Assembly (NCBI GenBank): GCA_937905825.1
Contig: CALCXM010000082.1
Coordinates: forward strand, 62,001-126,000
DNA: 64,000 bases
From: an uncultured bacterium
Lineage (GTDB): Bacteria; Planctomycetota; UBA1135; GCA-002686595
Reading direction: 5' to 3'
Shown piece by piece: positions 31,736 through 34,410 of the stretch. Numbering within the stretch: the stretch's first letter is position 1; each line of letters begins with the position of its first letter. A model generated the notes under the pieces. That model saw nothing but the letters and a program-made list of their open reading frames with translations. It made no database searches and was not told the origin of the DNA. The position numbers and the translations under genes were made by a program.

Positions 31736-32458
31736 ATGCCGAAAGACTCACTTTGCCTGGGGCTCTTGATCTCGCTCTGCTGCTTGGCAGCCTGCGCCAG
31801 CCCGCAGATCTCCAAGCCGGGGTCGCTCTCCAAGGATTCCCTGGCCGCGGCTTCCTCGGATACGGGTTTAGCGGTCCTTGCTCAGCTTGACCAACTGCTG
31901 CAGGAACAGTTCGAGAGTTCCCTGCCCGGGCCGCAGTTGGAAGCCTTGCAGCCCTTGCAGGGCGATTGGCAAGTGACGATGAGTTTGCTCGCCTGGCCCA
32001 CGGGGGAGGTGTCCTTGCCCGCGGTTGTTGCCACTGGCAAAACGTACATTCGCTCGACCCTCGGCGAGCGCTTCCTGCAGTGGGAAACCTTGCTCGATTG
32101 GTCCGGAACGCAAATCGCCTCGAGCGCCCTGCTCGGCTTCGACAAGCAGAGTGAGCGCTATCAATTGTGGCGCGCCTCCGAACTGGGCAGTGGCCAAGCG
32201 ATCTTCGCAGGCTCCGGCGATCCAGCGCGCGGTGGCCTGTACTTGGAACGCACCCAGAGCGCAGACGGCCAAGTCAGTCGTCTGCGTTGCGTGCTGCGTC
32301 TGGACGGAGCGGATCAGTTCGAGCTGGAAGAGTTCGGCTACGATGCCGAACGCTCCGAATGGGTCGCCGTGCGCATGACTCGCTACCTGCGATTAGGAGT
32401 CTGCGCCACAGATAGCGGTCCGCGAGATACCGAGCATCGGGCCCAGGTCAAGGAGTGA
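31736..32458 (+). CDS. DUF1579-like lipoprotein
   Basis: A 240-residue lipoprotein; the signal peptide ends in LAAC (about residues 17-20). From about residue 72 the pattern of a DUF1579 beta-barrel-like domain is seen: GDWQVTMSLLAWPTGE, then TYIRSTLGERFLQWE, ASSALLGFDKQSERYQLW and a closing set of strands. The family has no established biochemical role. Its last 20 residues (after RYLRLG) are unusual: they are encoded by the left arm of a 53-bp inverted repeat (32393-32445), so the C-terminus is probably a secondary addition. The gene is convergent with the permease at 32558. Confidence 0.75.
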   Translation: MPKDSLCLGLLISLCCLAACASPQISKPGSLSKDSLAAASSDTGLAVLAQLDQLLQEQFESSLPGPQLEALQPLQGDWQVTMSLLAWPTGEVSLPAVVATGKTYIRSTLGERFLQWETLLDWSGTQIASSALLGFDKQSERYQLWRASELGSGQAIFAGSGDPARGGLYLERTQSADGQVSRLRCVLRLDGADQFELEEFGYDAERSEWVAVRMTRYLRLGVCATDSGPRDTEHRAQVKE

Positions 32459-32561
32459 CAAGTTCCCAATGGTTGGATGCCATCGGGGACCTTGGCAGGA
32501 CGCAGAGATGGGTTCGAGGATCGGTGTCTCGCGGATCGCTATCTGTGGCGCAGGCTCCTAA
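32393..32561. repeat. 53-bp near-perfect inverted repeat (long hairpin) joining two convergent genes
   Basis: The arm 32393-32445 pairs with 32509-32561 around a 63-base loop. In the outer 41 bp every mismatch (32400/32554, 32418/32536, 32428/32526) is a G-U wobble, so as RNA this part has no unpaired base. The inner 12 bp continue after two purine mismatches (32434/32520 and 32436/32518). The left arm encodes the end of the DUF1579-like protein, and the right arm covers the 3' end of the permease gene. No T-run follows, so it may be a bidirectional terminator or a processed double-stranded RNA element. Confidence 0.85.
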
Positions 32562-33514
32562 CGGCGGATGGAACGCCGGGCGAGCACCGAAACAAGGTCG
32601 GCGACGAGCACGACACCCACGCTAAAAAGCACGAGTAGGAAGACCTCGTCGTAGTACTGCTTGGCCCGGGCGTCCTGAATCCAGTAGCCCAGGGAAAGCA
32701 CCCCGAGCATGCCGAGCACCGTGGCCTCGCGCACGCAGGTCTCGAAGCGATAGAAAAAGTAAAGCAGGTTCCGCCCGAGGGCCAGGGGCAAGACTCCGAA
32801 GACCACCAAACTGCGGCGCGGAGCACCTACGGCTGCCATGGCGCGCAGGGGAGCGGGCTCTAAGTTTTCCACCACCTCGCTGCCCAAGCGCGCGAGGATG
32901 CCGCAGTTGTGCATGGCCAGGGCCAGGATTGCGGGCCACGCGTTGCGCGGACCGAGCACTGCCAAGAGCAAGAAGGCCAGGATGAACTCGGGAACAGCAC
33001 GCAGCAAGATGGCGAGGGCCCGCGCCGAGCTGGAGATGGCTGTCCAGAACAAGCGCCGCCAAGTCGCCTCCCTGCCGCTCGGATTTTCAAATGGCGTGCT
33101 GGCCGCCAAGTTGCGGGCCGCGAACATGGAGAGCGGCAGGGCAGCAGCTCCAGCGATGACGATCGCGATGATCGAAATCTGAAGGGTGGCCAGGGTGCTC
33201 TGCATGCCAATCCGATTCCAGATGTCGGCGACCCAAGTGCTCAAGGCAGCGAGGCTCAGCGGCTCCCCGCGCAAGGGGAAGGGCACCAGCTCTGTCTCGA
33301 CGAAGCGCCCTAGATTGGAGAAGCGCCGTCCATCGAGGAAATCCATCAATCCGATCTCGGGACTGAACCAAGCGTAGAGTGTCCAGAGCCCGAGACTCCA
33401 GCAAGTTGCGCGCAGTAGTTTGCTGCGCGGGCGCGCGCGCCACAGGTCTTGCACCCGGGCGGCGCTGGTTGAGTTAGCACTCACGGAAGCGCCATTCACT
33501 CCACGGGCACTCAT
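32558..33514 (-). CDS. phnE: PhnE-type ABC transporter permease (second permease)
   Basis: A 318-residue inner-membrane protein. About six hydrophobic segments are visible, with a central binding-protein-dependent-transport motif region (RAVPEFILAFLLLAVLGPRNAWPAILALAMHNCGILARL; the EAA-like loop is around residues 225-260). It pairs with the upstream permease to form the channel for a phosphonate-type importer. ATG 33514 is chosen: it overlaps the upstream gene's stop by four bases (ATGA), showing translational coupling. The open frame upstream to 33697 is just overlap with the neighbour. The stop codon lies in the right arm of the 32393-32561 hairpin. Confidence 0.88.
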   Translation of the reverse strand: MSARGVNGASVSANSTSAARVQDLWRARPRSKLLRATCWSLGLWTLYAWFSPEIGLMDFLDGRRFSNLGRFVETELVPFPLRGEPLSLAALSTWVADIWNRIGMQSTLATLQISIIAIVIAGAAALPLSMFAARNLAASTPFENPSGREATWRRLFWTAISSSARALAILLRAVPEFILAFLLLAVLGPRNAWPAILALAMHNCGILARLGSEVVENLEPAPLRAMAAVGAPRRSLVVFGVLPLALGRNLLYFFYRFETCVREATVLGMLGVLSLGYWIQDARAKQYYDEVFLLVLFSVGVVLVADLVSVLARRSIRR

Positions 33515-34410
33515 CGGACAACCACCCGCCGTCGCAGGGCGCCACTGATGGCTTCCAAAACGAACACGAGAACGATCAGCGACCACAGGTACGACCAGAC
33601 CTCGTGGTAGCGCTTGTTGTCGAAGGCCAACTTGATGAAGTAGCCGAGGGTTGGATAGCCAAAGAAACCGAGCACCGCCGAGGAACGCACCGCGCACTCA
33701 AAACGGTAGAAGGCGTAGGCGGCCATGTCGGGCAAGGCCCGCGGCAAGAGTCCGAACAAGAAGGCTTGTGCTTCGGTCGCTCCCGATGCGCGCAACACAT
33801 CGGCGCTATCCCGGGGCGCTTCGTCCAGAATGTCCGAGAAGACCTTGGCGAAGGTTCCCGCGAAGGGCAGGGCGATGGCGCACACAGCGCTGAAGGAGTT
33901 CAAGCCCAGGGCCGCCAGCAAGAGCACGGCCCACAGGACTTCGTGAATGGAGCGCAAGAGGGCAATGCCCGTTCGAATGCCCACGAAGAGCGTCGGGTTG
34001 AGCCAGCGCTTCAACAGGTGAAAGCGTTCCCCGCGTGCGCCCTTGTGATTCTTCCACCAGGCCGTCGACGCCACGATTCCCAAGGGGAAGCCGAGCAACA
34101 AGGCCAAGCTCAAACCACTGGCGGCAAAGATCAGCGTGCGCCGCAGGGCATCGAGGACTTTCCAAGGAAGCGCGACGGTGCCCTCGGGCACGACGACCTC
34201 GTAGTCCCAAGCGGGACTCAAAGAGGCGCCCAGGAACTCCCCGAGAATGTTGAGGCCCGAACCGGAGGGCACCAAACCGGAAAGGGTCACCCCCAATCCG
34301 TGGGCCGCCCAGAGGGCCGCCAAGGCGATGGCCAGCAGCCATGTGCGGCGTGCTCCGAAGGGGCCGGGGCGTGCGGGAAGGGGGCCCGGGTTGTGCGAGT
34401 GGCTCGCCAC
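33511..34410 (-). CDS. phnE: PhnE-type ABC transporter permease (first permease)
   Basis: A 299-residue inner-membrane permease with a long hydrophobic N-terminal segment (about 23-45) and at least five more. The conserved permease loop reads IHEVLWAVLLLAALGLNSFSAVCAIALP (about 163-190), followed by an ASGATEAQAFLFG coupling helix that contacts the ATPase. It begins with GTG at 34410, directly against the stop of phnC (no gap). A two-permease arrangement after PhnD and PhnC is common for phosphonate, phosphite and related oxyanion importers. No C-P lyase gene is in the window. Confidence 0.88.
   Translation of the reverse strand: MASHSHNPGPLPARPGPFGARRTWLLAIALAALWAAHGLGVTLSGLVPSGSGLNILGEFLGASLSPAWDYEVVVPEGTVALPWKVLDALRRTLIFAASGLSLALLLGFPLGIVASTAWWKNHKGARGERFHLLKRWLNPTLFVGIRTGIALLRSIHEVLWAVLLLAALGLNSFSAVCAIALPFAGTFAKVFSDILDEAPRDSADVLRASGATEAQAFLFGLLPRALPDMAAYAFYRFECAVRSSAVLGFFGYPTLGYFIKLAFDNKRYHEVWSYLWSLIVLVFVLEAISGALRRRVVVR

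Follow-up and report, generated by a model that had tools for sequence, protein, structure and literature searches.

The long hairpin found between two convergent genes in a 64,000-nucleotide stretch of planctomycete DNA (hereafter the window) is most probably, with a probability that we would place at about 0.85, a MITE with terminal repeats of the IS1182 family, which would have been moved in trans into a YTAR site and whose folded core is under selection. Membership of the MITEs is ordinary in itself, and what is unusual is a conserved core with exchangeable ends; searches of the literature found no description of a MITE-like core of this kind, and a search with the letters of its internal motif gave nothing relevant. 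The usual picture of a MITE is that of an IS remnant in which the ends are important and the middle is not. Our elements offer the reverse of that panorama: the ends are swapped wholesale, while the middle, the length and one motif persist in distant Planctomycetota. If this is true, some MITE interiors would be selected structures with exchangeable ends, and such elements could outlive each transposase that moves them. Moreover, the window provides a concrete case, with the unoccupied site in a relative, where the target choice of a mobile element creates protein C-termini and stop codons.

Structure of the hairpin

The top inverted repeat of the 64-kb window is formed by two arms of 53 nt with 87% complementarity and 63 nt between them (Table 1). 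Inspected by eye, the arms differ from perfect pairing at seven positions, five of them G-U pairs on the + strand and two true mismatches, as the original prediction had described. The + strand of the hairpin folds with −133.5 kcal/mol compared to −72.3 ± 4.3 kcal/mol for dinucleotide shuffles (z = −14.1, 0 of 200), and the − strand gives a weaker fold (−108.7 kcal/mol, z = −10.3). The spacing of 63 bases is as first proposed, but these bases do not form an unpaired loop, because in both the single-sequence and the consensus folds they continue the stem and finish in a small apical hairpin.

Table 1. Positions in the window of the hairpin, its parts and the two genes that it joins
Feature	Position	Strand	Basis
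Left arm	32393..32445	+	inverted-repeat search
Right arm, complement of left arm	32509..32561	+	inverted-repeat search
Apical hairpin, approximate extent	32463..32492	+	consensus fold
Whole mobile hairpin, A subfamily, 169 bp including the flanking T and A of YTAR	32393..32561	+	copy alignment
Left terminal inverted repeat, TAGGAGTCTGCGCCACAGATAGCG, like IS1182-family ends in G021 and G042	32394..32417	+	end searches
Right terminal inverted repeat	32537..32560	-	end searches
Putative TA target duplication, left copy (inside TTAG)	32394..32395	.	end comparison of copies
Putative TA target duplication, right copy (inside CTAA)	32559..32560	.	end comparison of copies
Internal motif, left half CAAGG, nt 57 of the element	32449..32453	+	position common to nearly all families
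Internal motif, right half GACGC, 63 nt from the right end	32499..32503	+	position common to nearly all families
DUF1579-family lipoprotein gene	31736..32458	+	ORF, Pfam; codons from 32393 element-derived
ABC-transporter permease gene, start codon uncertain	32558..33517	-	ORF, Pfam, relative's homologue

A family of repeats in the same genome

The question of further copies, raised together with the original prediction, finds a clear answer in the window's own assembly (G000; 6.37 Mb in 192 contigs, 88.6% complete), where six more full-length copies show 94–99% identity to the window copy, loop included (98–99% at five places and 94% at the sixth). Besides these seven full copies of 169 bp, the boundaries of which were set by aligning them, the genome contains about 30 partial or diverged pieces, solo arms among them, and copies decay. 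A search for the 24-nt end, allowing three mismatches at most, gave 30 occurrences against none for a reversed control, and both ends of the window copy match the degenerate 24-bp pattern with 0 mismatches. The element carries no transposase ORF and lies well within the length used here for short MITEs (under about 300 bp). Neither a search of plasmid records with three of the elements nor a search of Rfam with the element, even at E values up to 5, returned any match.

Around eleven of the solo arms, of some 30 nt (CTAGGAGCCTGTGCCACAGATAGCGGCCCG) and lacking a partner arm, were located at L024, L026, L027, L028, L029, L031, L058, L059, L060, L061 and L062, often right at a stop codon. Several of them share a GCGRCCCG end unlike that of the full elements, and may represent a distinct short mobile form. 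Contigs of G042, G002 and G000 often end within hairpins, and the copy numbers in draft assemblies are probably underestimates.

Insertion between two stop codons

The proteins encoded at both sides of the hairpin contain the Pfam domains DUF1579 (lipoprotein) and BPD_transp_1 (permease). The element encodes the 21 lipoprotein residues 220–240 (LGVCATDSGPRDTEHRAQVKE), followed by the stop codon at 32456–32458. The left arm thus codes for the end of this protein as originally proposed, except that the last few residues come from the so-called loop. The permease stop does fall within the right arm, as a TAG at 32560–32558 of the − strand.

In this regard, DUF1579 homologues of relatives terminate at the point where the element starts, or a few residues from it. 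A relative of the same genus (G001) shares the gene order (porin, lipoprotein, then a permease with 63% identity) but lacks the hairpin; no copy of the element was detected anywhere in its genome. The lipoprotein (...TSYTRASS-TAA) and the permease (...RRSVRRG-TAG) of this relative overlap in a CTAA, with zero bases between the genes. This is the empty site, although the relative is too diverged for a base-exact join. Since these stops overlap in CTAA without the element, the window copy entered a tail-to-tail stop-codon site, which extended the C-terminus of the lipoprotein by 21 residues and provided the TAG at which the permease stops. In the window's genome, the reconstructed TTAA has its TAA out of frame with the lipoprotein, which blurs the ancestral end of this gene. 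A solo arm inside a response-regulator gene (L028:2000-2030; contig C74:83130 of the same assembly) is translated as LGACATDS, the frame also used by the lipoprotein of the window.

Target sites and stop codons

Most copies in the window's genome show CTAG at both ends, whereas the window copy has TTAG at the left and CTAA at the right. Ends of the form (C/T)TAG...CTA(G/A) are consistent with a duplication of TA at YTAR targets (CTAG or TTAA), which would explain both combinations and which we infer from the end sequences of the copies. Copies also sit in or beside each other at such sites, and A elements are joined to B elements through a common CTAG. With regard to genes, 11 of 30 arms provide with their TAG the stop of an ORF of at least 120 aa, compared to 57 of 344 other CTAG sites of the same DNA (Fisher p = 0.012), an excess that is only moderate because CTAG itself is tied to gene ends.

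At L161, L178 and L181 the copies occupy a CTAG in the midst of short palindromes (e.g., cctcgttccagt|CTAG|actggaacgagg). Such positions at palindrome centres fit with the behaviour of IS1272, a member of the IS1182 family that targets hairpins and terminators (PMC5678879, PMC4923244). The window itself contains, at 1292–1339 and just past a gene end, a perfect 22-bp hairpin with a CTAG across loop and stem, which resembles a vacant target of the same type as the palindromes that hold copies elsewhere.

Transposases with the same ends

In G021, arms of the A type bound a 1.56-kb element with a 454-aa transposase, which is an IS1182 equivalog above the NCBIfam cut-off. At several contig ends of Baikal-deep-G170 (G042), an A-type end adjoins fragments of IS1182. 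The window's assembly (88.6% complete, 192 contigs) yielded no A-type transposase; its contig C38 carries an IS1182 element with a 595-aa transposase, the ends of which (CTAGAAACCCGGCCGAAAAAG at the left and CTAGAGGCCCGGCCGACAAGGGG at the right) are the arms of sister B-type hairpins. This IS1182 element is complete (C38:37128-38963; L009:168-2003) and lies at the TAG with which the preceding gene stops. The reading frame of its transposase extends into the CTAG that closes the element, a site that holds an inserted A hairpin.

IS1182 is not the only family involved. In G317, a complete genome, the hairpin arms CTAGAAGCTGTTTCAAAACTG are also the ends of a 0.9-kb element that encodes an IS5-family transposase in two frames, so the same core is found with ends of either IS family.

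Other candidate partners were discarded. Transposases of the IS630 type (PF13358) and the IS5 type (PF13586) were looked for in the window's genome and none was found. An IS1182-like gene of G002 has no C arms in the flanks read. Poly30 (G041), a cultured strain that yielded 16 full-length copies, contains about 67 arms, of which, among the pairs listed, none lies at IS distance with near-perfect ends, and the ends of its DUF772 gene differ by eye. Some other palindromes were also observed. One of about 184 bp with CTAG ends (L097:2435-2618; arms CTAGCCCGACCTATTCATGAG) does not match the core model and is joined through a common CTAG to an A-type element of Baikal-deep-G170, and in G317 the loci L248, L249 and L250 are full palindromes of 28 bp (CTAGAAGCTGTTTCAAAACCGCTTCTAG type), that is, two arms joined with no core.

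A conserved core with a strand bias

G002 contains around 19 copies or pieces with an interior mostly 85–88% identical to the window copy, yet their outer ~28 bp differ from it while remaining complementary to each other. Full elements of 165–170 bp from seven families (A, B, C, Poly30, G019, G021 and G002) were aligned in 23 rows, four of which had been turned round beforehand, in an orientation supported by where the internal motif lies and not by energy alone. In this representative alignment, the consensus has 65 pairs, 53 of them with double compensatory changes, and 94.4% of the cells are paired; none of 500 shuffles was as good, and the slid control came nowhere near. The alignment folds with −119 kcal/mol on the + strand and −78 kcal/mol on the − strand, and one strand shows 168 G.U against 18 A.C cells across the 23 sequences. 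Counted per pair column, in any family, the figures are 35 and 18 (p = 0.03), and the asymmetry becomes weaker in distant families.

The arms of a palindrome can copy or correct each other, imitating covariation without any RNA, and the strand bias alone escapes that caveat. Such an asymmetry is what selection on the fold of one strand would give, and it is the only argument that we see for a role in single-stranded form. The selection on RNA pairing advanced in the original prediction is therefore recovered, through one-strand G.U pairs and compensatory changes across families, for the mobile family but not for the locus: selection acts on the family and not on the window site. A role of the hairpin for these two particular genes finds no support, given the same-genus relative without it and the six near-identical copies at other places. 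Relatives devoid of the right arm, already named in advance as an argument against such a role, together with the repeats elsewhere make a locus-specific RNA function unlikely.

Distribution among Planctomycetota

Of 392 Planctomycetota genomes sampled with a covariance model of the core, 20 contain matches, mostly full-length ones, in more than ten families; none was detected in the other 372, and copy numbers and sites vary between genomes. The matched elements have unrelated arm sequences, from GC-rich to AT-rich, most of them with CTAG-type ends, and their length is mostly 162–173 nt (~167). Most keep a [CG]AAGG-type motif at nt 56–59 and [AG]ACGC at 61–63 nt from the right end, a persistence that is partly circular since the model itself favours pairing and motifs. 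A palindrome with different arms found before the model existed (L113) shows the same motif, however, and matches the model with 86.9 bits; the long palindromes of L097 and L086 were not recognised by it. The second of these adjoins one of the 53 matches to Y1-type transposase genes in G025, a genome of the same order.

A model for the mobile hairpin

Altogether, the sequences suggest a scenario in which a transposase of the IS1182 family moves the short palindrome in trans into YTAR sites, mostly CTAG, with duplication of TA. The element starts with TA-GG, and its insertion into a stop codon would tend to rebuild a TAG; as CTAG and YTAA often hold stop codons, insertions at gene ends would be tolerated. 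In the window, the entry would have taken place where two convergent genes met, so that the permease stop was kept and the last 21 codons and the stop of the lipoprotein were supplied. The middle of the element would not be an IS leftover but a conserved hairpin core with pairing maintained on one strand. The molecule that folds, helping the element to persist, would be either an RNA transcript or the same strand in the form of single-stranded DNA, and the fold may serve, for example, to close off transcripts running into it.

A broader proposal, which we advance tentatively and consider somewhat less likely to be right than wrong, is that of a phylum-wide mobile hairpin which exchanges its ends and parasitises the transposases of different IS families, with a core of ~110 nt selected as RNA or single-stranded DNA. 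The near-fixed length, the CAAGG/GACGC motif, the one-strand pairing and the occurrence of IS1182 ends in several genera and IS5 ends in G317 all point in this direction.

Alternative explanations

The position between convergent genes and the very stable fold of both strands would suit a bidirectional terminator, or a stabiliser of mRNA 3′ ends, evolved at this gene pair. The near-identical copies elsewhere and the empty site in the same-genus relative rule out a terminator or a locus-specific RNA as the origin of the hairpin; the terminator scan found no intrinsic terminator at 32393–32561, and the hairpin is not followed by a U-tract. We consider this reading improbable, though a terminating effect may have been acquired after the insertion. 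Slightly less probable still is a family of structured non-coding RNA genes with a host function, for which transposition would be secondary. It would account for the near-constant length, the internal motif and the covarying fold across many planctomycete families, but agrees poorly with the variable copy numbers and sites, the 372 of 392 genomes where none was detected, the decay of copies and the lack of an Rfam family.

Palindromes of the REP/REPIN type moved by a Y1 (RAYT) transposase were also considered, given that solo arms and inverted pairs are both present, that the window's genome has three Y1 genes and that REPs too are known for supplying TAG stops (PMC3733652). Their hairpins, however, are of 20–40 nt with a GTAG tag at one end, whereas the present ones are 169 nt long with CTAG at both sides. 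In the window's genome, the flanks retrieved for the Y1 genes contain no arm except a solo one ~4 kb off (C97), and several Y1 genes of G002 also lack arms directly alongside. DDE-type elements with the same ends, namely the IS1182 element bounded by A arms and the IS1182 and IS5 elements bounded by sister arms, mostly refute this reading, the least probable of the three.

Comparison with known systems

The MITE moved by IS1182-type enzymes that we favour recalls several described elements. Within its own transposase family, IS1272 shares the targeting of palindromes and terminators (PMC5678879, PMC4923244), and it has been reported without an internal stop codon, just as the transposase frame of the C38 element reaches the last bases of the element. 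IS1272, however, replaces a stem-loop with no target duplication, whereas the present elements lie in CTAG or TTAA, some of them at palindrome centres, with an apparent duplication of TA. GTAG REP elements (PMC3733652) similarly have hairpin termini that give TAG stops to the flanking ORFs; ours is four to eight times longer, has CTAG at both ends and is associated with a DDE-type instead of a Y1 transposase. Rickettsia palindromic elements (PMC10969869), likened here by description alone, are palindromes of ~150 bp that add coding sequence, as happens with the 21 residues of the lipoprotein and the LGACATDS of the response regulator. In contrast to them, the planctomycete elements are often found at stop codons and not inside genes, and their IS ends have been identified. 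Finally, bacterial MITEs such as Correia/NEMIS, ERIC, Nezha and RUP, reviewed in a work that does not mention an IS1182-linked MITE (PMC10969869), are also short, non-coding and multi-copy, with IS-type terminal repeats, RNA folding and occasional in-frame fusion to genes; what sets the hairpin described here apart is an interior conserved, at near-fixed length, among families with unrelated terminal repeats.
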